The notes below the pieces were generated by a model. The model made no database searches, was not told the origin of the DNA, and saw only the letters and a list, made by a program, of their open reading frames with translations. Of a DNA stretch of 64,000 bases, positions 51,995 to 62,590 are shown in pieces. Positions within the stretch are counted from its first letter, which is position 1. Each line of letters begins with the position of its first letter. Source of the stretch: Fibrobacter sp. UWB4 (GTDB lineage Bacteria > Fibrobacterota > Fibrobacteria > Fibrobacterales > Fibrobacteraceae); assembly GCF_002210345.1 (NCBI RefSeq), contig NZ_MWQI01000004.1, forward strand, positions 124,001 to 188,000, written 5' to 3'. The translations under genes were made by a program, and so were the position numbers.

Positions 51995-54226
51995 ATGAAC
52001 ATGAAATGTTTGGCTGCACTGGGCTTACTTGCGGGCTTTGGTGTAAGTGCGCTTGCTGATAACCCTATTTCTAGCTATCATTATCTGGCGGACCCTTCTT
52101 GCGCCTCTGACGGTGATACCTTCTACATCTTGACCGATGTGGATGACTACAACAACCAGACAAACTGGAACTACGACATTGTCGGCCTTTACGCCTTCAC
52201 GTCCGAAGACATGAAGAACTGGACTGATCACGGCATGATTTTCCGCTCCAGGCGTGAATTCGGGAACTATCCGAACAACACCTGGGCTTCGGGCATTGCC
52301 GTGAAAAACGGCAAGGTTTATATCGTCTACCCTGATGGCGCAAGCGGCGTGGGCATGATTACGGCCCCCGCGATTGACGGCCCGTATACCGACCCCGTCA
52401 AGGAAACGCATGGAGTCAATAGAATTGCGGGTGGCGGTAGCCTTATCAATGGCTGCGACGGCATTGCGCACTGTTTTGATCCGGGCATCTTGATCGATGA
52501 CGATGGTACGGGTTACGTGATTTTCGGTGGTGGCGAAAGCTCTAGCCGCCCGTATGGCAACAACTTCGACATTATCAAGTTTACCGAAAGCAATGGCAAG
52601 ATTACTTTCGACAAGAATTCCTTGAAGAAGGTTTCTTTGCCGAACTCTTTCGAAGCCCCTTACTTGCACAAGAAGGGTAGCACTTATTACTTGAGCTTCA
52701 ACAACCGTAGCCAGATTATTGACTATGGTATGTCGAATAACATCTGGGGGCCTTATACCTTCGTAGGTACGGTTATTCCGGGAATTGGCTCCGTGCCTGA
52801 TGCGCACGGCGAAGGCGGTAACAACCACCAGGGATTTGCTCCGTTCAAGGACAAGTGGTATGCCGTGTATCACGACCGTCGCTTGGTGACTTCCGATAAC
52901 CACCCGGCCGCAACGACTCAGGCGGGCGTGCGTTCCGAAAATCCGAATTACGAGAACCACAGAAGCGTGTCCATCGATGAACTCACCTGGAATGGCGACA
53001 AGATGAACAAGCTGACCTTCACTCGTGAAGGCCCGAAGCAGATCAAGAACTTTGACCCGTACAGGACCTACAAGGCGACGACTAGCTCCAAGCAGATGAA
53101 CATCCGTAGCCGTACCGACTGGACCAAGGGACAGCCGGTGAAGCATGTGCTCTTGCCGCTCACGAGCCGTAGCGAATCCTGGATCCGCGTCTCGGGCGTG
53201 GATTTCGGTAACGGCGCGCAGAATCTCCGTATCAAGGCTGCAAGCGTGGCCGATGGCAATACGATTGAAATCCATAAGGGAAGCGCAAGCGGAACGCTCG
53301 CCGGTACATGCAAGATTGCAAAGACCAGCAACAACATGACCTTTACCGATAACGATTGCGAAATGACGGGCCTTACGGGCGTTGTCGATCAGCTGTTCTT
53401 TGTGTTCAAGGGTTCCAAGGATTCGACCATGGGCATTCTTGAATGGGAATTTCAGGGCACGAAGCGCGAACCTGAACCGCAGACGCCGTTTGGCGGCAAG
53501 GCTTGGGCAATCCCTGGCAAGATCGAAATGGAAAACTTCGATGAACCGGGTTATGGCGCAGGTAACGATTCTTACGCTGATAACGATTCTGATGACCACG
53601 GTGCCGAAAGCAATGGTGGCAAGAGTTACCGCGAAGGCACTGGCGTAGATATCTACAAGAAGGCTACGGGCTATGTTGTGGGTTACAACCAAACGGATGA
53701 ATGGCTGGAATACACTGTGGATGTGGCTGCCGAAGGCGACTACACGATGTTTGCGGCGGTGGCTTCTGCCAATGCGACCTCTGGTTTTAAACTCTCCATC
53801 GATGGTGACGATATCACGGAATCGATTGCCGTTCCGAAGAACGATGGCGAAGAGAATTATGACGACTACAGCAAGGTGAAGGCGAACGTGAAGCTCCCGG
53901 CTGGTAAGCATATTCTCCGCTTTACCGTGACTGGCGACTGGATGGACATTGACTACATCCAGTTTGCAGCGGGCAAGGATGCTAAGGATCCGGATGAAGG
54001 TAGCGAAGTGGCTATCCGTCAGAAGATCCGCATGAATGCGATTGCCGCTGCAACTTACGACGTGTTCGACTTGACGGGCAAGAAGATGGCTAGTTTCACG
54101 GCCCGCAATATGAACGAAGCGAAGAGCCTTCTGCGTGATGGCACCTATGCTAAGAGTGTGCAGGGCGTGTGCCTCATCCGTAACCGTAGCACGGGCATGA
54201 TGGCAAAGGTCCGCACGACGCGCTAG
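51995..54226 (+). CDS. GH43 glycoside hydrolase with CBM6 modules (arabinofuranosidase/xylosidase type)
   Basis: 743 residues from ATG 51995 (AAGGAG upstream). Signal peptide CLAALGLLAGFGVSALA. The GH43 five-blade propeller (about 23-340) has the base Asp33 in YHYLADPS, the modulating Asp in CFDPGILIDDDGTGYVIFGG and the acid Glu220 in FEAPYLHKKGSTYYL. A first CBM6-like beta-sandwich (about 360-500) precedes a clear CBM6 (about 515-690: IPGKIEMENFD, YREGTGVDIYKKATGYVVGY, DEWLEYTVDV, DWMDIDYIQFA). A basic C-terminal module follows (TYDVFDLTGKKMASFTARNM, ending VRTTR). It cleaves arabinose or xylose from xylan. The exact substrate is not determined by sequence. Confidence 0.92.
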   Translation: MNMKCLAALGLLAGFGVSALADNPISSYHYLADPSCASDGDTFYILTDVDDYNNQTNWNYDIVGLYAFTSEDMKNWTDHGMIFRSRREFGNYPNNTWASGIAVKNGKVYIVYPDGASGVGMITAPAIDGPYTDPVKETHGVNRIAGGGSLINGCDGIAHCFDPGILIDDDGTGYVIFGGGESSSRPYGNNFDIIKFTESNGKITFDKNSLKKVSLPNSFEAPYLHKKGSTYYLSFNNRSQIIDYGMSNNIWGPYTFVGTVIPGIGSVPDAHGEGGNNHQGFAPFKDKWYAVYHDRRLVTSDNHPAATTQAGVRSENPNYENHRSVSIDELTWNGDKMNKLTFTREGPKQIKNFDPYRTYKATTSSKQMNIRSRTDWTKGQPVKHVLLPLTSRSESWIRVSGVDFGNGAQNLRIKAASVADGNTIEIHKGSASGTLAGTCKIAKTSNNMTFTDNDCEMTGLTGVVDQLFFVFKGSKDSTMGILEWEFQGTKREPEPQTPFGGKAWAIPGKIEMENFDEPGYGAGNDSYADNDSDDHGAESNGGKSYREGTGVDIYKKATGYVVGYNQTDEWLEYTVDVAAEGDYTMFAAVASANATSGFKLSIDGDDITESIAVPKNDGEENYDDYSKVKANVKLPAGKHILRFTVTGDWMDIDYIQFAAGKDAKDPDEGSEVAIRQKIRMNAIAAATYDVFDLTGKKMASFTARNMNEAKSLLRDGTYAKSVQGVCLIRNRSTGMMAKVRTTR

Positions 54227-54408: not shown

Positions 54409-54502
54409 AAATCTTTTGGCGTGTTCAGGGCTGTTTTGTTTTTTTGGAGGTACTTTTAGATTGGATGGATTGACGGTGTATGGTCGATCCTAAGGAGTGT
54501 TC

Positions 54503-56725
54503 ATGAAACTGCTTAAGAAAGCAACGATGTTTGGATTGATGGCGGGCTTTGGAGTAAGCGCTCTCGCTGACAACCCGATTTCTACTTACCACTACTTGGC
54601 TGACCCGGGTGCAGCCGCTGACGATGATTACTTCTACATCATCACGGACTCTGATGACCCGGCTCCGTACAATTCCGATGGCTACAAGATTTACGCCCTT
54701 TATGCATTCCGCAGTAGGGATATGCAGAACTGGACAGACTACGGCATTATTTACGATGCCCGCAAAGTAAATGGCATTAACGACATTTGGGCTTCTGGCA
54801 TTGCTGTCCACAACGGCACGTTCTATATTGTGTTCCCGGATGGCGGTGGCGGCGGCATTGGCTACATCAAGGCGCCTGCGATTGAAGGTCCTTGGACAAA
54901 CGCTGTGGGCCAGGGCAAGGATAAGCTTGTCGGTGGTCGCGGCATCATCGGTTGCGATGGCGTTTCCTGGTGCTTTGACCCGGGTATCTTTATTGATGAC
55001 GACGGCACGACTTACGTGACGTGGGGCGGTGGTGAAAGCAATAGCCGTCCGAATACGGACAACTTTGATATTGTCAGGCTGAACGATGCGAAGGATGCTC
55101 CGGTGGGCAACGGTTCTCACGTGAAGGTGAATAACTTGCCGACCCGCAAAATGCTTGAAGCTTCTTACATCCACAAGCACAAGGGAACTTACTACTTCTC
55201 TTACAGTACTGGCTGGCAGCAGGGCGCTCCGACGATTGACTACGGTATTTCGAGCAACGTCATGGGGCCGTATACCTGGAAGGGCACGATTCTCGGTGAC
55301 CCGAGCATGAACGGACGTAGCATCAATGGTAACAACAACCACCATGGTATTGCCGAATTCAAGGGCCATTCTTACGTTGTCTATCATGACCGTCGAATTG
55401 CCAAGGGCCACAACGGCTTGGAAATTATCCCGGCTGATGACGGCAAGGCAAAACCGAACGAAGGTTACCACCGCAGCGTTTCTGTAGACGAAATGTTCTA
55501 CAATTCTGATGGAACTATTAAGACCGTTACGGTGACGGATGAAGGCCCGGCACAGATTGAAAACTTTGATCCGTACGATTGGTATCCGGCACTCACGAGT
55601 TCCAAGCAGAAGGGCATCCGTAGCCGTTCGAACTTTGTGCAGGGCAAGGCTGCCGATCATGTGTTGCTCCCGCTTTCTTCCAAGGAAGCTTGGCTCCGTG
55701 TTTCGGGAGTTGACTTTGGCGCTGGTGCAACGGGCTTTACGGTTGAAGCCGCAAGCGCTGCCGATGGCAACAAGATTGAAATCCGCTCGGGTTCTGCAAC
55801 GGGTACGCTCGCTGGTACTTGCACCCTCAAGAATACCGGCAACAAGAGCGTTTTTGCCGAAAACAAGTGCGATGTCGAAGGGCTTTCGGGCGTCGTAAAG
55901 CAGCTGTTCCTTGTGTTCAAGGGTTCTCAGGACTCTACCATGGCCGTCAAGGCTTGGGGCTTCGAAGGCAGCGGCACGACTCCGCCGGAACCGCAGAAGC
56001 CGTTTAGTGGCAAGGCTTGGGAAATTCCGGGCAAGATCGAAATGGAAGACTTCGACATTCCGGGTTCTGGCCGCGGTAGCGAAATCAAGTCTTACAGCGA
56101 AAATGATTCCGAAGACCATGGCATTGAAAATGGTGGCAAGAGCTACCGCGAAGGCACGGGCGTGGACATTTACAAGAAGGCTACGGGCTACGTTGTTGGC
56201 TACAACCAGTCCGGCGAATGGCTCGAATATACCGTGAATGTCAAGGAAGCTGGCGACTACACGATGTTTGCTTCTGTGGCGACGGACAATTCGACGGCAA
56301 GCTTTACGCTCTCCATTGACGACAAGTCCATTGCTGAAGTTCCGGTTGCAGGTGACAGCTGGGATGACTTTGTCAAGGTCAAGGCCAACGTGACGCTCCC
56401 TGCCGGTGAACATGTGCTCCGCTTCACCATTACGGGCGACTGGTTCGATATCGACTACATGACCTTTGCAGCGGGCAAGAATGCCAAGGACCCGGATGAT
56501 GAACCGATTGCTCTCCGTAAGGGACTTCAGCTGGGTGCATCTTCTGTCGCCACATTTGACGTGTTCGATTTGACTGGCAAGAAGATCACGAGCTTCACGG
56601 CTCGCCACATTCACGAAGCGAAGAAACTCTGGCGCGATAATGCCATGTCCAAGAGCGTACAGGGCGTTTGCATCATCCGTAACCGTCACAACGGTGCAGT
56701 CGCACGAGTAAGAACGATCCGATAG
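54503..56725 (+). CDS. GH43 glycoside hydrolase with CBM6 modules, second paralogue
   Basis: 740 residues from ATG 54503; the GTG two codons earlier is too close to the ribosome site. Closely related to both flanking GH43 proteins. Signal peptide MKLLKKATMFGLMAGFGVSA. GH43 propeller with base Asp34 (YLADPG), modulating Asp (WCFDPGIFIDDDGTTYVTWG) and acid Glu in KMLEASYIHKHKGTYYF. It has a CBM6-like sandwich (IRSRSNFVQGKAADHVLLPL), a CBM6 (IPGKIEMEDFDIPG, YREGTGVDIYKKATGYVVGY, GEWLEYTVNV) and the basic tail TFDVFDLTGKKITSFTARHI. Likely secreted to the cell surface for xylan side-chain or xylooligosaccharide cleavage. Confidence 0.92.
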   Translation: MKLLKKATMFGLMAGFGVSALADNPISTYHYLADPGAAADDDYFYIITDSDDPAPYNSDGYKIYALYAFRSRDMQNWTDYGIIYDARKVNGINDIWASGIAVHNGTFYIVFPDGGGGGIGYIKAPAIEGPWTNAVGQGKDKLVGGRGIIGCDGVSWCFDPGIFIDDDGTTYVTWGGGESNSRPNTDNFDIVRLNDAKDAPVGNGSHVKVNNLPTRKMLEASYIHKHKGTYYFSYSTGWQQGAPTIDYGISSNVMGPYTWKGTILGDPSMNGRSINGNNNHHGIAEFKGHSYVVYHDRRIAKGHNGLEIIPADDGKAKPNEGYHRSVSVDEMFYNSDGTIKTVTVTDEGPAQIENFDPYDWYPALTSSKQKGIRSRSNFVQGKAADHVLLPLSSKEAWLRVSGVDFGAGATGFTVEAASAADGNKIEIRSGSATGTLAGTCTLKNTGNKSVFAENKCDVEGLSGVVKQLFLVFKGSQDSTMAVKAWGFEGSGTTPPEPQKPFSGKAWEIPGKIEMEDFDIPGSGRGSEIKSYSENDSEDHGIENGGKSYREGTGVDIYKKATGYVVGYNQSGEWLEYTVNVKEAGDYTMFASVATDNSTASFTLSIDDKSIAEVPVAGDSWDDFVKVKANVTLPAGEHVLRFTITGDWFDIDYMTFAAGKNAKDPDDEPIALRKGLQLGASSVATFDVFDLTGKKITSFTARHIHEAKKLWRDNAMSKSVQGVCIIRNRHNGAVARVRTIR

Positions 56726-56834: not shown

Positions 56835-57545
56835 ATGAAAAAGTTTTTATTCTGTGCATGTATTTTTGCAGTAATTTCTCTAGCCGCATGCGGTGATAGT
56901 ACTAATCCTTCGGATAGCTCGATTCCTGATCCTGTAGTGGATAAAAACAGTCTTACGGATTCTCGTGATGGTCGAACTTATAGGACTGTTGTAATTGGCT
57001 CTCAGACTTGGATGGCTGAAAACTTGAATTTTGAAACTGCGAATAGTTACTGTTACGATGATAAGCCTAGCAATTGCACGAAGTATGGTCGCCTTTATGC
57101 ATGGGGTGCAGCGATGGATAGTGCGGGGTTATGGAGTGCAAATGGCAATGATTGTGGCAACGATAAGGAATGTTCGCCAACGTATCCTTTGCGCGGAGTT
57201 TGCCCAGACGGTTGGCACTTACCTACAAAAGCTGAGTTCGAAACGTTGATATCTTCAATTGGCGACGAATGGGTGGTTGGGGGAAAACTCAGATCAAAAA
57301 CTGGATGGAATCATAGTAACCGATATCAAAATACGGATGATTATTCGTTTACGGCTCTTCCTGGTGGTAGTAGATTGCCTGGTGGGGGTTACAGTAATGA
57401 AGGCGAAAACGCTTTCTTTTGGAGTTCTACAGAGATCTCTGGTGACATGGCGTACTACATGACTTTATACTATAACATCGATTATGTGAAGCCTGGCTAT
57501 CTATTCAAGTCCAGCGGATATTCAGTTCGCTGTATTAAGGACTAG
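56835..57545 (+). CDS. FISUMP-domain lipoprotein between GH43 genes
   Basis: 236 residues. Lipoprotein signal with lipobox LAAC, a short linker (GDSTNPSDSSIPDPVVDKNS), then the FISUMP domain (RTYRTVVIGSQTWMAENLNF, KYGRLYAWGAAMDS, GVCPDGWHLPTKAEFETLIS, FWSSTE, YSVRCIKD). Much shorter linker than the 40883 paralogue. It shares none of the conserved leader of the GH43 genes and lies between two of them. It may bind glycan or the cell surface, but the function is unknown. Confidence 0.9.
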   Translation: MKKFLFCACIFAVISLAACGDSTNPSDSSIPDPVVDKNSLTDSRDGRTYRTVVIGSQTWMAENLNFETANSYCYDDKPSNCTKYGRLYAWGAAMDSAGLWSANGNDCGNDKECSPTYPLRGVCPDGWHLPTKAEFETLISSIGDEWVVGGKLRSKTGWNHSNRYQNTDDYSFTALPGGSRLPGGGYSNEGENAFFWSSTEISGDMAYYMTLYYNIDYVKPGYLFKSSGYSVRCIKD

Positions 57546-57672: not shown

Positions 57673-57740
57673 GCTTGTTTGTGGATAGTTTTATAAAAAA
57701 CGGGATGGCGGTGTGTTTGGTCGATCCCAAGGAGTGAACA

Positions 57741-59936
57741 ATGAGATTACTGAAACGTTTAACGATGGCAGGCTTGCTCGCCGGTTTTGGTGTGGGCGCG
57801 CTTGCCGATAACCCGATTTCGGCTTATCATTACTTGGCCGACCCGGGTGCTGCTTCTGACGGCACTTATTTTTACGTCATCACGGACTCGGACGACCCGG
57901 CTGTGGCTAACGCCAACGGCTACGATATCAAGGCTCTTTACGGTTTTCGCACCAAGGATATGAAAAACTGGACCGACTTCGGTATCATTTACGATGCCCG
58001 CAAGGTCGATGGCATTGGTGATATTTGGGCCTCCGGTATTGCGGTAAATCCCAACGACCACAGACTTTACATTGTGTTCCCGGATGGCGGTGGTGGCGGT
58101 ATCGGCCTCATTGGCGCTGACAGCATTGCGGGGCCGTGGACAAACCCAGTCTCTGGCAACAAGAAGCTCATCAACAACTGGGGTGGCGGCCTTGCGGACT
58201 GTGATGGCATTGGCTGGTGCTTTGACCCGGCAATCTTCTTCGATGACGATGGTACGGGTTACTTTACGTTTGGCGGTGGCGAAAGCAATAGCCGCCCGGC
58301 AGCGAATAACAACAATAACATTTTCAATATATACAAGTTTAACAAGGATATGAAGGGCTTCGATGTGAGTTCCAAGACCCAGCTGAAAATCGGCGGTCCG
58401 AAGGCGATGGAAGCTTCTTACATCCACAAGTATAAGGGTAATTACTATCTCTCTTACAGTACGGCTGACTTGCGCATTGCTTACGGCATGTCCAAGAACC
58501 CGATGGGTCCTTACGAATACAAGGGTATCTTCATGGGGAACCCAAACATTAATGGCCAGAACATCAACGCCAATAACAACAACCATCATGGCATTGCCGA
58601 ATTCAAGGGCCACTGGTACGTGGCTTACCATGACCGCCGCATTGCAAACGGCTATGATGGTTTGGAAAAGATTCCTGCTGACGACGGTCGCCCGAATCCG
58701 GTGCCGGCATTCCACCGCAGCGTTTCGGTCGATGAATTTACTTACAATTCCGACGGCACGATGAAGGAACTGACCTTCACGAAGGAAGGCCCGAAGCAGA
58801 TTGAAAACTTCGATCCGTATGACTGGTACCCGGCTCTCACGAGTTCCAAGCAGAAGGGCATCCGCAGCCGTTCGAACTGGGCCCCGGGCAAGGTTGCTGA
58901 ACACCTTTTGCTCCCGCTTTCCACGAAGGAATCATGGATCCGCGTTTCGGGTGTGGACTTTGGCACGGCGGCGACGGGCTTGACGGTTCAGGCCGCAAGC
59001 ACGGATGATGGCAACAAGATTGAAATCCGCACGGGTTCTGCAACGGGAACGCTTGCGGGCACTTGCTCGCTCAAGAATACCGGCAGCAAGAATACTTTCG
59101 CCGATAACTCTTGCGAAGTCGAAGGTCTCAAGGGCATTGTCGAACAGCTGTTCTTTGTGTTCAAGGGTTCCAAGGATTCTACGATGGCGATCAAGGCTTG
59201 GGGCTTTGAAGGCAGTGGCACGACTCCTCCCGAACCGCAGAAGCCGTATGGCGAAAAGGCTGTGACGCTCCCGGCTAAGATTGAAGCGGAACACTTTGAC
59301 ATTCCGGGCGTTGGCCGCGGTGGCGATGTCGATTCTTACAGCGACGCCGATTCCGAAAACCAGGGCGATGCAGAATTCCGCACAGACCTGGGCGTGGACA
59401 TTGTGCTTGGCGGTACGGGCAAGGCGGTTGGCTACACGGCTTCTGGCGAATGGCTCGAATACTCCGTTGTGGTCCCGGAAGATGGCGACTATGCTATTGT
59501 GGCCTCGGCTTCTACCGGGATGGAAAATGGCGCGAGCTTCTGCTTCTTGGTTGATGGCAAGGCCGTTGGCGATACTGTCAAGGTCCCGCAGACCGGCGAA
59601 GACTGGAGCGTCTATAAAGAATTTGAAGGTGGCAAGGCGAAGCTCACCAAGGGCGAACACATTATCCGTCTCGTGATCACGGGCAACAACGTGAACGTGG
59701 ACTGGTTCTCGTTTGGCGATGTGGAAAAGGTTGGCATCAAGCCCTCTGTGAAGTTCCAGGCGAATGCTTCTCGCGTCTACCGCGTGTATGGCGTGAGCGG
59801 TAAGCTGCTTGGCATTGTGGACCTCGCCGGAAAGAAGGCTGGCGAAGCTCTTCAGAGTGCAGGATTCACCAAGGGCGTTTACATGCTCAAGAGCGTTGAC
59901 GGTCACAAGACCTTCATGACATCTGTCGCAAGATAA
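57741..59936 (+). CDS. GH43 glycoside hydrolase with CBM6 modules, third paralogue
   Basis: 731 residues. Signal peptide MRLLKRLTMAGLLAGFGVGA. GH43 propeller with base Asp34 (YLADPG), modulating Asp in WCFDPAIFFDDDGTGYFTFG and acid Glu in KAMEASYIHKYKGNYYLSY. A CBM6-like sandwich (YPALTSSKQKGIRSRSNWAP) and a diverged CBM6 (LPAKIEAEHFDIPGVGRGGD, FRTDLGVDIVLGGTGKAVGY, GEWLEYSVVV) follow. The final module (RVYRVYGVSGKLLGIVDLAG, GVYMLKSVDGHKTFMTSVAR) is closer to a standard type IX secretion sorting tail than those of the other two GH43 proteins. GGAG lies 8 bases before ATG. Confidence 0.92.
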   Translation: MRLLKRLTMAGLLAGFGVGALADNPISAYHYLADPGAASDGTYFYVITDSDDPAVANANGYDIKALYGFRTKDMKNWTDFGIIYDARKVDGIGDIWASGIAVNPNDHRLYIVFPDGGGGGIGLIGADSIAGPWTNPVSGNKKLINNWGGGLADCDGIGWCFDPAIFFDDDGTGYFTFGGGESNSRPAANNNNNIFNIYKFNKDMKGFDVSSKTQLKIGGPKAMEASYIHKYKGNYYLSYSTADLRIAYGMSKNPMGPYEYKGIFMGNPNINGQNINANNNNHHGIAEFKGHWYVAYHDRRIANGYDGLEKIPADDGRPNPVPAFHRSVSVDEFTYNSDGTMKELTFTKEGPKQIENFDPYDWYPALTSSKQKGIRSRSNWAPGKVAEHLLLPLSTKESWIRVSGVDFGTAATGLTVQAASTDDGNKIEIRTGSATGTLAGTCSLKNTGSKNTFADNSCEVEGLKGIVEQLFFVFKGSKDSTMAIKAWGFEGSGTTPPEPQKPYGEKAVTLPAKIEAEHFDIPGVGRGGDVDSYSDADSENQGDAEFRTDLGVDIVLGGTGKAVGYTASGEWLEYSVVVPEDGDYAIVASASTGMENGASFCFLVDGKAVGDTVKVPQTGEDWSVYKEFEGGKAKLTKGEHIIRLVITGNNVNVDWFSFGDVEKVGIKPSVKFQANASRVYRVYGVSGKLLGIVDLAGKKAGEALQSAGFTKGVYMLKSVDGHKTFMTSVAR

Positions 59937-59947
59937 TTCCTTATGAG

Positions 59948-59974
59948 GGAGACGCCCGCGAAGGCGGGCATGAC
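59948..59974. repeat. Dispersed palindromic intergenic repeat
   Basis: GGAGACGCCCGC-GAA-GGCGGGCATGAC copy. Confidence 0.7.
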
Positions 59975-60006
59975 AAAAAGAGAAGCACACGTGCTTCTCT
60001 TTTTTC
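59975..60006 (+). terminator. Terminator after third GH43 gene
   Basis: AAAAAGAGAAGCAC-AC-GTGCTTCTCTTTTT, perfect stem with T run. Confidence 0.85.
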
Positions 60007-60016
60007 GTTACATCTC

Positions 60017-60033
60017 GTTACCAAAATGTCAAT
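60017..60033 (+). promoter_or_regulatory. Orphan copy of the dyad element
   Basis: GTTACC-AAAAT-GTCAAT. 98 bases downstream is an ATG (60131) that runs into a stop after three codons. Confidence 0.55.
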
Positions 60034-60203
60034 GATAAAAATTGGGGAAAGTGTGTTTTTGGGTGGAAGTAAACCTAAATTCTTAGGTGGAAAGTTTTGC
60101 AGTTTTGCAAAGGGTATTATGGGATGTTGCATGAGCGCTTAAAACGGTTCGCTTTAGCATTTTCCCAAAATTCCCCAAAAGATCCTCCTAAACCACACAC
60201 CCT

Positions 60204-60278
60204 AATGGCGCTGAATGGTGCCATTTCACCTCGGGATGAATGTCCCGAGGTGTTTGCATTTGCACTATGTGCAAATGC
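60204..60278. repeat. Three consecutive hairpins
   Basis: AATGGC/GCCATT (60204-60225), then the perfect 10-bp stems CACCTCGGGA-TGAATG-TCCCGAGGTG (60227-60252) and GCATTTGCAC-TAT-GTGCAAATGC (60256-60278). No T run follows, so a simple terminator is unlikely. Confidence 0.75.
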
Positions 60279-60403
60279 CAGTTGCTAGGCTCGGATATAG
60301 GCTTGCGAGCAATCCTGCATCACTCGCCTTACGCAACTGTGTGCATCCGCGACGCTCGGCCTACGCATTTGTTGTATTTACGGTTGCGGCTCTCGACCTA
60401 CGC

Positions 60404-60420
60404 ATTACCAAAGTGTCAAT
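60404..60420 (+). promoter_or_regulatory. Conserved dyad element upstream of GH30 gene
   Basis: ATTACC-AAAGT-GTCAAT, ending 98 bp before ATG 60518. Confidence 0.6.
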
Positions 60421-60517
60421 GGAAAATTTTCTGCGTTTCGGGCGGTTTTTGACCCTGGGATATAAATTTAGAATGTACCCTCATGCAAAGGGCATGGGAT
60501 AACTATGGGAGATTTTT

Positions 60518-62590
60518 ATGAAGTGTATGGGTGATGTCCTGAAAATTGCCTCGTTTGGTTTGGTTTTGGCAATTCCCTCGCTTGCCTCGACGGTCAATGT
60601 TGACGTGACTGAAGAACATCAGGTCATTCGCGGTTTCGGCGGCATGGTGCATAACCAGTGGCAGGGCGGTGGAGGCCTTTCCGAAGCCGATGCGAAGATC
60701 GCTTTTGGTACGGGCGATGGCACAATCGGCCTCAACACGCTCCGTATTCCGGTGTATGCAAGTTCTAACGACTTCAATAAGGAAGTTCAGGCTGCAAAGT
60801 ATGCCAAAAAGTACGCCGGCGATGACTTTATCCTTTATGCGACTCCGTGGACATCGCCGTACGCAGGGGCGAACCAGCACATGGCTTCTTCGAATTACCA
60901 GAAGTATGTGGACCACCTGAATAGCTTTAACGATTACATGAAGAATCAGGGCGTTCCCCTGTATGCTATCTCCATCAGTAACGAACCGGACTGGTGCGGT
61001 GAATGGGCCTGCTGGAGTGCCGACGAAATCTACAACTTCACCAAGGGCTATGCCGACAAGATGCGCAAGAATGGCGCGAAGGTGATTTCTACAGAATCCT
61101 TCCGTTATGACAAGAACCTCTACAATAAGGTCTTGAACGATGCCAATGCCCTCAAGAACTGGGACATTCTCGGCGCGCATTTTTACGCGAGTGACCGAAG
61201 GACTGGGGACAACTTCTTCCAGTACAGCCTTGCTGACCAGAAAAAAGTCGAACGCTGGATGACGGAACACTACACCGAAAGCCAGGGAAGCGGTAACTAC
61301 TGGCGCACGATTACGAATACGGGTGACCAGGCGAACCAGAACAAGCGCGATACTGTGAACGCCATGGATGTGGCTTACGAAATTCACCGCGCCATGGTCG
61401 TGGGCAACTTCAATCAGTACACCTGGTGGTACATCCGTCGCTGCTATGGCTTGATTATGGAAAAGGACTTTGGCAACAAGCTCCAGATTCCGCAGAACGA
61501 AATCGGCAAGGTCTCGAAGCGCGGCTATGTGCTGAGCCAGTTCGCACGCTTTGTCCGCCCGGGTGCGGTCCGCGTGGGTGCAACGGCAAATCCCGAAAAG
61601 GAAGTCTTTGCAAGTGCTTACAAGAGTGCCGATGGCGACTCCGTGATTGTGGTGCTCGTGAACCGCGACTATAAGAATAGCAAGACTGTAACCGTGAAGG
61701 TGCAAGGCGCCGATGTTCAGACCTTCCACATGTACACCACCAGCGAAGCAAAGAACGCCAAGGATGAAGGCGAAGTCGAGGTCAAGAATGGCTCCGTGAC
61801 GATTACGATGGATGCTGGTAATGCAAGCAACAAGGACTGCATTGTGACGCTCGTGGGCGTTGGCACTCCGGCGGACCCTGTTCCTCGTGAACCGTTTGGT
61901 GGCAAGGTCGCTGAAATTCCGGGCAAGATTGAAGCCGAAAACTTCGACATCCCGGGTACGGGCAAGGGCAACAAGTCTTATAGCGAAAACGATTCCGAAG
62001 ACCGTGGCGAAACCAACTACCGCGAAGGTACGGGCGTTGACATTTACAAGAAGGCTACGGGCTATGTGGTCGGCTATAACGAAGAAGGCGAATGGCTCGA
62101 ATACTCTGTGAATGTGAAGGAAGCCGGTGATTACACAATGTTTGCTTCTGTCGCTACGAGTAATTCGACGTCTGGTTTCTCGCTCTCCTTGGATGGAAAA
62201 ACTCTTGTAGAAAATGTCGCACTTTCGGGAACGAGCTTCGATGACTTTGTGAAGGTCAAGGCCAACGTAACGCTCCCGGCTGGCGAACATATTCTCCGCA
62301 TGACGGTGACGGGTTCCTGGTTCGATATCGACTACTTCAACTTTGCAAAGGGCAAGGATGCCGCCGATCCGGACGATAAGACGATTGGTTTGCGCAGTGC
62401 TAATTTCCGCTTGCCGACCGAAGCCGAAAATTACAGTGTCTTCGACGTGAACGGCGTGCTCGTGGGCAAGTTCCTCGCTACGACCAAGGCCGATGTCCAG
62501 CGCATGACCAAGAGCGTGGTGCGTCAGAATGGCATTTACTTTGTGAAGTCGCTGGGTGGCAAATCCTACCGCATTTCTGTGGCTAAATAA
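60518..62590 (+). CDS. GH30 xylanase (subfamily-8-like) with CBM6 and secretion tail
   Basis: 690 residues. Signal peptide (IASFGLVLAIPSLAS). GH30 (beta/alpha)8 barrel plus side beta domain (about 25-440): IRGFGGMVHNQW, FILYATPWTSPYAGANQHMA, acid/base Glu156 in ISISNEPDW and nucleophile Glu250 in WMTEHYTES, with HFYASDRRTG and QYTWWYIRRCYGLIMEKDFG. These motifs are typical of endo-acting glucuronoxylanases. A CBM6 (about 455-600: IPGKIEAENFDIPG, YREGTGVDIYKKATGYVVGY) and a type IX-like sorting tail (YSVFDVNGVLVGKF, GIYFVKSLGGKSYRISVAK) complete it. Works with the GH43 and CE6 enzymes on xylan. Confidence 0.92.
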   Translation: MKCMGDVLKIASFGLVLAIPSLASTVNVDVTEEHQVIRGFGGMVHNQWQGGGGLSEADAKIAFGTGDGTIGLNTLRIPVYASSNDFNKEVQAAKYAKKYAGDDFILYATPWTSPYAGANQHMASSNYQKYVDHLNSFNDYMKNQGVPLYAISISNEPDWCGEWACWSADEIYNFTKGYADKMRKNGAKVISTESFRYDKNLYNKVLNDANALKNWDILGAHFYASDRRTGDNFFQYSLADQKKVERWMTEHYTESQGSGNYWRTITNTGDQANQNKRDTVNAMDVAYEIHRAMVVGNFNQYTWWYIRRCYGLIMEKDFGNKLQIPQNEIGKVSKRGYVLSQFARFVRPGAVRVGATANPEKEVFASAYKSADGDSVIVVLVNRDYKNSKTVTVKVQGADVQTFHMYTTSEAKNAKDEGEVEVKNGSVTITMDAGNASNKDCIVTLVGVGTPADPVPREPFGGKVAEIPGKIEAENFDIPGTGKGNKSYSENDSEDRGETNYREGTGVDIYKKATGYVVGYNEEGEWLEYSVNVKEAGDYTMFASVATSNSTSGFSLSLDGKTLVENVALSGTSFDDFVKVKANVTLPAGEHILRMTVTGSWFDIDYFNFAKGKDAADPDDKTIGLRSANFRLPTEAENYSVFDVNGVLVGKFLATTKADVQRMTKSVVRQNGIYFVKSLGGKSYRISVAK

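Follow-up and report, generated by a model that had tools for sequence, protein, structure and literature searches.

The window analyzed here is a 64,000-nt stretch of the genome of Fibrobacter sp. UWB4 (G000, contig C4, positions 124001 to 188000), and coordinates refer to it unless a contig is named. Around the orphan stretch that concerns us, the genes follow one another in the order GH43-CBM6 (51899), GH43a (GH43-CBM6; 54497), a FISUMP-domain protein (Fib_succ_major; 56835 to 57545), GH43b (GH43-CBM6; 57741 to 59936, plus strand), the orphan stretch itself, GH30-CBM6 (60518 to 62590, plus strand), and a SASA-type esterase with CBM6 (62665). The FISUMP gene lies between GH43a and GH43b in the window; in G043, G075, and G033 a different protein of 611 to 616 amino acids is encoded there. 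The listed start of the first GH43 ORF (51899) overlaps an operator, and its likely start is the ATG at 51995, after AAGGAGTG. The leaders of GH43a (54470 to 54503) and GH43b (57700 to 57741) have in common a CGGTGT.T..GGTCGATCC(C/T)AAGGAGTG-like sequence directly before the ATG.

An inverted repeat 3' of GH43b (59975 to 60004, plus strand) is a probable terminator between GH43b and the orphan unit. A repeat containing GCCCGCGAAGGCGGGCATGACA lies at 59938 to 59979, also 3' of GH43b, and has further copies in this genome and in relatives; dispersed intergenic repeats, with many copies genus-wide and several in this genome, occupy 60272 to 60335 and 60347 to 60372, between the orphan cassette and the GH30 operator. 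The intergenic region as a whole (59937 to 60517) is a mosaic in which the orphan leader is closest to G046 and the GH30 side is closest to G044, a sequence pattern that we take as a sign of recombination inside the CAZyme cluster.

The orphan unit begins with the operator GTTACCAAAATGTCAAT (60017 to 60033, plus strand), an imperfect copy of the palindrome ATTGACAWWWTGTCAAT, and a second operator, ATTACCAAAGTGTCAAT (60404 to 60420, plus strand), lies 98 bases 5' of GH30. The dyad that a preliminary description of this DNA had placed at 60017 is thus real and has a twin; a 22-base pattern that fits both operators, and was derived from these two, has two matches in the window and none in 100 shuffles. 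Genome-wide, ACCAAANTGTCAATG occurs exactly at two places and with a mismatch at one more, compared with 0 places for a control pattern. In 132 kb of contig, the working consensus is found at seven sites when up to one mismatch is allowed (51884, 54392, 57627, 60018, and 60405 in the window; C4:188359 and C4:214859 beyond it) and all seven are upstream of a probable CAZyme start, in a scan whose consensus came partly from the same sites, whose shuffle control was limited to one strand, and which had two extra places with two mismatches. By hand count, the ATTGACAWWWTGTCAAT palindrome stands 83 to 98 bases upstream of these starts, and its placement suggests that the genes behind it may form a regulon. 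Exact matches to the operator core in G017, G025, and G028 were set aside, as they seem by eye to lie within coding sequence.

The distance from the last operator base to an ATG is 98 bases in both cases (60033 to 60131 and 60420 to 60518). At the orphan site this ATG opens the series ATG AGC GCT TAA (60131 to 60142, plus strand), exactly as first described. Between operator and ATG, an A/T-rich stretch, CTAAATTCTTA (60075 to 60085, plus strand), may be the -10 region of a promoter of the orphan unit, and TAAATT is found at its place in 12 of 12 cassettes of the gene-less kind described below; TTTGCA-gttt-TGCAAA (60096 to 60111, plus strand) was picked out by eye and could form a small leader hairpin. 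Sigma-70 consensus promoters showed no excess (3 found, 3.7 expected from shuffles), and our promoter claims are not based on them. The preliminary description had also likened this leader to that of GH30. What we found is one short match (TGCAAAGGG...ATGGGAT) with a score of 20 (mean of the shuffles, 16.1); 86 of 1,000 shuffles reach that score, and we therefore rejected the GH30 leader as the origin of the orphan leader. Its homologs are instead the leaders at the orthologous place in other genomes (0 of 300 shuffles for each of G005, G018, G044, G046, G052, and G068; 1 of 300 for G026), and the operator is present wherever the contig extends to it, at 16 of 16 loci, with 14 exact copies and 2 with one mismatch.

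To find these loci, we searched 61 genomes of the genus with the operator core, with GH30, with the DNA between the genes, and subsequently with the GH43c protein; a later covariance-model search of 80 genus genomes brought the total to 18 loci. Six carry a gene that is missing from the window, which we call GH43c, and 12 are gene-less and have deletion scars. GH43c is, by its Pfam domains, a GH43-CBM6 gene (710 to 726 amino acids) that lies complete between operator and terminator in G026, G043, G018, and G005 and is cut by the contig end in G038 and G070. Its start is found 106 to 111 bases after the operator in G026, G043, and G018; in G026 the ATG is 111 bases after the operator ACC, identical to the spacing in the window. 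In the 99.99% complete window genome, the best match to GH43c is its paralogue GH43b, at 56%. A GH43c-like gene of G017 (75%, on another contig) was discarded, as it has no conserved element (see below) 3' of it.

The scars at the gene-less loci retain different pieces of this gene. In G068, G075, and G077, a 23-residue ORF, MSLKQNALATVFGYGAAALAVFI followed by a stop, is the GH43c signal peptide only, with the 3' untranslated region (UTR) directly after it; the scar of G074 fuses signal-peptide codons to the last codons of GH43c, and that of G037 consists of the last codons only. G052 reads ATG AGA GTT TAA and resembles a frame-shifted descendant; G046 and the window share the broken start, and their scar is shorter. 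Another scar, starting from TTG AGT TTG CGA TAG, is common to G044, G013, G001, and G050. In the window, ATG AGC GCT TAA thus represents the broken first codons of GH43c, and the deletion scar (60143 to 60178, plus strand) stands at the place of the GH43-CBM6 coding sequence in relatives; coding pieces are clear in G068, G075, G077, G074, and G037, while those of the window, aligned by way of G046 and G052, are limited to first codons in a decayed state. The gene-less label changes five times on the GH30 tree (three changes forced by well-supported branches) and three times on the GH43b tree (one forced). Because recombination blurs both trees, we give no exact count of losses and claim only that at least two of the deletion structures are clearly distinct, namely, the signal-peptide stub and the loss of leader and start with the last codons kept; the number is probably three or more. 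That a hydrolase gene was lost at the orphan locus is, in our judgment, highly probable. The preliminary description is therefore supported in taking the stretch for what is left of the 5' end of a hydrolase gene now lost, as GH43c follows the same operator in relatives and pieces of it persist in gene-less ones. The comparison of strains for an extra gene that it proposed finds one at 6 of the 18 loci; the GH30-like leader on which it also relied is the part that did not survive.

Directly after the scar lies the 3' UTR of the lost gene (60179 to 60255, plus strand; 103.8 bits with covariance model R1), and this element is kept at all 18 loci, gene-carrying or gene-less. In the gene-carrying form, it stands between the stop codon and the intrinsic terminator. 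It consists of a C-rich unpaired core of 19 bases, CCTCCTAAACCACACACCC (60184 to 60202), that does not vary among the 18 genomes, a covarying hairpin 1 (60204 to 60225), and an intrinsic-terminator-like hairpin 2 (60227 to 60252), all on the plus strand. In the 61-genome scan, CCTCCTAAACCACACACCC had a single occurrence in each of 13 genomes and none, even at one mismatch, in the other 48; a scan of named genomes for the exact core gave 11 records, all from Fibrobacter and several of them F. succinogenes metagenome-assembled genomes. The 13 elements aligned first (12 distinct) extend over 77 bases with no gap. Across the alignment, 99.1% of cells are paired in the element structure compared with 39 to 51% in slid controls, and in hairpin 1 the value is 100%, with two pairs changed on both sides. 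Such double-sided changes affect only 2 of 19 pairs, a count matched by 46 of 500 shuffles, and the covariation score is reached by 5 of 500. The fold of the window element has a z score of -6.04, and none of 200 shuffles is equally stable. No Rfam family reached its gathering threshold in the window (best match, 20.6 bits, below gathering).

Synonymous sites in the neighboring genes give a measure of this conservation. In the gene-less genomes, 36 of 182 fourfold-degenerate sites are invariant in GH30 (11 genomes) and 48 of 249 in GH43b (12 genomes), or about 20%. Conservation of the 3' element far exceeds that of nearby synonymous sites, and the scar between operator and element varies widely over the same genomes. 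In G077, other genes split the cassette from both GH43b and GH30, and in G068 they split it from GH30, which implies that the cassette is more than a piece of the GH30 promoter or a trailer of GH43b. We considered whether the cassette had relocated in G075 and G077 and rejected this; in G077 other genes are inserted on both sides, and the G075 contig ends just past the element. Selection on both ends without the gene appears to be a simpler reading of these sequences than protection by recombination.

The genus can do without the element, as 42 of 80 genomes have no model match. Weaker matches (36 to 39 bits) in G028, G054, and G033 occur between GH43b and GH30, immediately 3' of GH43b, and retain CCCTAAACCACACATCC and a terminator-like hairpin, and the element therefore seems older than GH43c; it looks like an ancestral piece of the 3' UTR of a GH43 gene, predating GH43c itself. 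A related 3' UTR motif is found directly after the stop codon of other genes (GATTCTAATCCATACTCCCC and ATCCTAATCCATAACTCCCC; G000:C4:214491 and C4:216794).

The core is complementary to two stretches of the GH43b leader, GGTGTGT (57710 to 57716) and AGGAG (57730 to 57734; both on the plus strand), of which the second would be the Shine-Dalgarno sequence. The strength of this pairing varies among genomes. In G018, the leader sequence GGTGTGTGGTCTTAAGGAG faces the core complement GGGTGTGTGGTTTAGGAGG in a duplex of -30.6 kcal/mol (0 of 200 shuffles), and 10-base perfect matches exist in G018, G043, G054, G075, and G077. Over all 18 genomes, the z score of the seed against the GH43b leader is at or below -1.56 (mean, -2.81), compared with means of -0.97 for GH30 leaders (n = 20), -0.67 for GH43a (n = 11), and -0.33 for the esterase (n = 11); four related GH30 leaders with TTTAGGAG (G001, G013, G046, and G050) have scores of -2.1 to -3.6. 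Five leaders were scored as GH43c; that of G000 (a 29.5% match) does not belong to a GH43c gene and is disregarded. G054 departs from the succinogenes form in both partners, with UCCCU in the core in place of the CUCCU found elsewhere and AGGGA in the Shine-Dalgarno stretch, and its leader pairs better with its own seed (z = -4.1) than with those of G018 (-2.3) or G000 (-2.6).

The pairing is weak in the window genome, where it is equaled by 9 of 200 shuffled leaders, or by 25 of 100 when self-folding is counted. Among 40 gene starts in the window, the GH43b leader was the best target at -20.3 kcal/mol, a value equaled by 27 of 200 shuffled seeds, in a search whose automatic gene list had an antisense ORF in place of GH43a. 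Two of four control GH43b leaders from genomes counted as lacking the element (G048 and G020) also pair well, and G020 has a weak divergent element. Antisense matches to the core in the whole genome are, besides the core itself, limited to G000:C5:204515, with two mismatches. A conserved hairpin in the GH43b leader exposing GGUGUGUGG in its loop was considered and dropped, as the consensus fold gave no support. Hfq (PF17209) was not found in the window genome (5 of 14 control genomes were positive), which makes a classical Hfq-dependent small RNA unlikely. An RNA from the element may thus pair with the GH43b leader and its Shine-Dalgarno sequence, strongly in some genomes and weakly in this one, and we name GH43b as its target tentatively, at somewhat less than even odds.

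Several other explanations would account for part of these observations. The cassette could be a plain relic of recent gene loss, in which operator, leader, and 3' UTR have not yet decayed, their sameness comes from recent recombination among strains, and no RNA functions at all. Recombination is visible here and could inflate conservation, G044, G013, G001, and G050 have a haplotype that is near-identical across the whole cassette including the scar, and the target pairing is weak in the window genome. However, scars and leaders diverge between gene-less groups while the core stays at 19 of 19 bases, only about 20% of fourfold-degenerate sites are invariant in the flanking genes, and the 77 bases are gap-free in the 13 aligned genomes with changes in hairpin 1 that preserve pairing, and we regard mere persistence as unlikely.

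It is also unlikely, to a slightly greater degree, that the element matters only as a conserved mRNA 3' end that stabilizes or terminates GH43 mRNAs and, in gene-less genomes, shields GH30 as a terminator from upstream transcription. The terminator-like hairpin at its end and the related motifs behind other secreted-protein genes would fit such a role, but a terminator does not need an invariant unpaired stretch of 19 bases, GH43b has an inverted repeat of its own upstream of the operator, and two genes in G077 and one in G068 stand between the element and GH30. Those intervening genes likewise separate the operator from GH30 and so weigh against a reading in which the orphan operator serves GH30 or titrates the regulator and the RNA is irrelevant; exact operators at 14 of 16 testable loci (one mismatch at the other 2) and the same kind of site at GH30 speak for it, but it leaves the conservation of the 3' element unexplained, and we consider it improbable. 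The remaining proposal of the preliminary description, a GH30 leader duplicated as an RNA decoy, has the common operator and one short match in its favor but is hardly credible, as the leader similarity is within the range of shuffles and the gene-carrying relatives show that the leader belongs to GH43c. Its broader idea that an RNA is what matters at the locus may still hold, with the likely RNA being the 3' end at 60179 to 60255, downstream of the stretch which that description had singled out.

The anatomy of the orphan unit, its homology to the gene-carrying loci, and its conservation are matters of observation; the reading that best accommodates them suggests a promoter-driven, 3' UTR-derived candidate small RNA that has outlived its mRNA. 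We assign a probability of roughly 0.65 to the joint claim of a lost gene and a functional RNA, and function of the element as a noncoding RNA is, taken alone, just as probable. Under this reading, positions 60017 to 60255 would be the remaining shell of the transcription unit of a secreted GH43-CBM6 hydrolase, GH43c, with its coding part deleted, its operator kept upstream, and its terminator-bearing 3' UTR kept downstream. A regulator of hemicellulase genes would bind the operator and the promoter would fire, yielding an RNA of about 170 bases that ends near 60255; regulator, promoter position, and transcription are all postulated here from the arrangement of the sites. The C-rich core would then act in trans as a small RNA, with CUCCU and CACACACC of the element as the stretches that pair with AGGAG and GGUGUGU(GG) of the presumed target, the GH43b leader. 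Masking of the Shine-Dalgarno sequence would be expected to damp GH43b translation while the regulon is on, if the sign of the effect is as we suppose. We further speculate that a free-standing regulatory RNA gene was born by repeated ORF deletion: a GH43 3' UTR would already have controlled the GH43b leader by Shine-Dalgarno masking, and several lineages would have dropped the enzyme and kept promoter and RNA, the ORF being dispensable cargo and the RNA the selected part. This fuller scenario, in a host in which Hfq was not found, is rather doubtful.

Comparable systems are known in other bacteria. OppZ and CarZ of Vibrio cholerae are described as autoregulatory small RNAs derived from 3' UTRs (PMC7398697), and the proposed Fibrobacter RNA would resemble them as a structured RNA from an mRNA 3' end that base-pairs with an mRNA and inhibits its translation. 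As presented in that article, RNase E releases OppZ and CarZ by cleavage of an intact mRNA (PMC7398697), whereas here the ORF is absent in 12 of 18 genomes and the unit's own promoter could make the RNA directly; they differ as well in that Hfq was not found in the Fibrobacter genome. In icaR of Staphylococcus aureus, a C-rich anti-RBS motif (UCCCC) in the 3' UTR masks the ribosome binding site (PMC7821165), a role for which CCUCCU or UCCCU would be the counterpart here, by complementarity only. The icaR motif targets its own mRNA (PMC7821165), whereas the Fibrobacter element is on a separate gene-less unit, and the divergent elements directly behind GH43b in G028, G054, and G033 would match the icaR-like arrangement. 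IcaZ of S. epidermidis is similar in that its unit lies just downstream of its target gene, icaR, and acts on the target 5' UTR, but no origin by ORF deletion is described for it in the parts of the article we draw on (PMC7821165). For the host group, GH43 and CBM6 genes of Fibrobacter succinogenes S85 are reported to respond to substrate and growth rate, which is consistent with a regulon, and the main text of that paper does not contain the terms "small RNA," "non-coding," "intergenic," or "operon" (PMC6204037). Our searches of a collection of open-access literature turned up no report of this element, nor of any comparable small RNA in Fibrobacter.

Small RNAs from the 3' ends of mRNAs are well known. 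To our knowledge, their transition to genes of their own has mostly been argued from finished examples. In Fibrobacter, intermediate stages stand side by side in one genus, from the full gene through the signal-peptide stub and the frame-shifted stub to the bare scar, with operator and RNA end common to all. Even as a relic, the cassette accounts for the orphan site and shows where many strains have lost a CAZyme gene. Should the RNA prove functional, the passage from mRNA to small RNA could be studied directly at this locus, and the hemicellulase genes of a rumen fiber degrader would have a further level of control.
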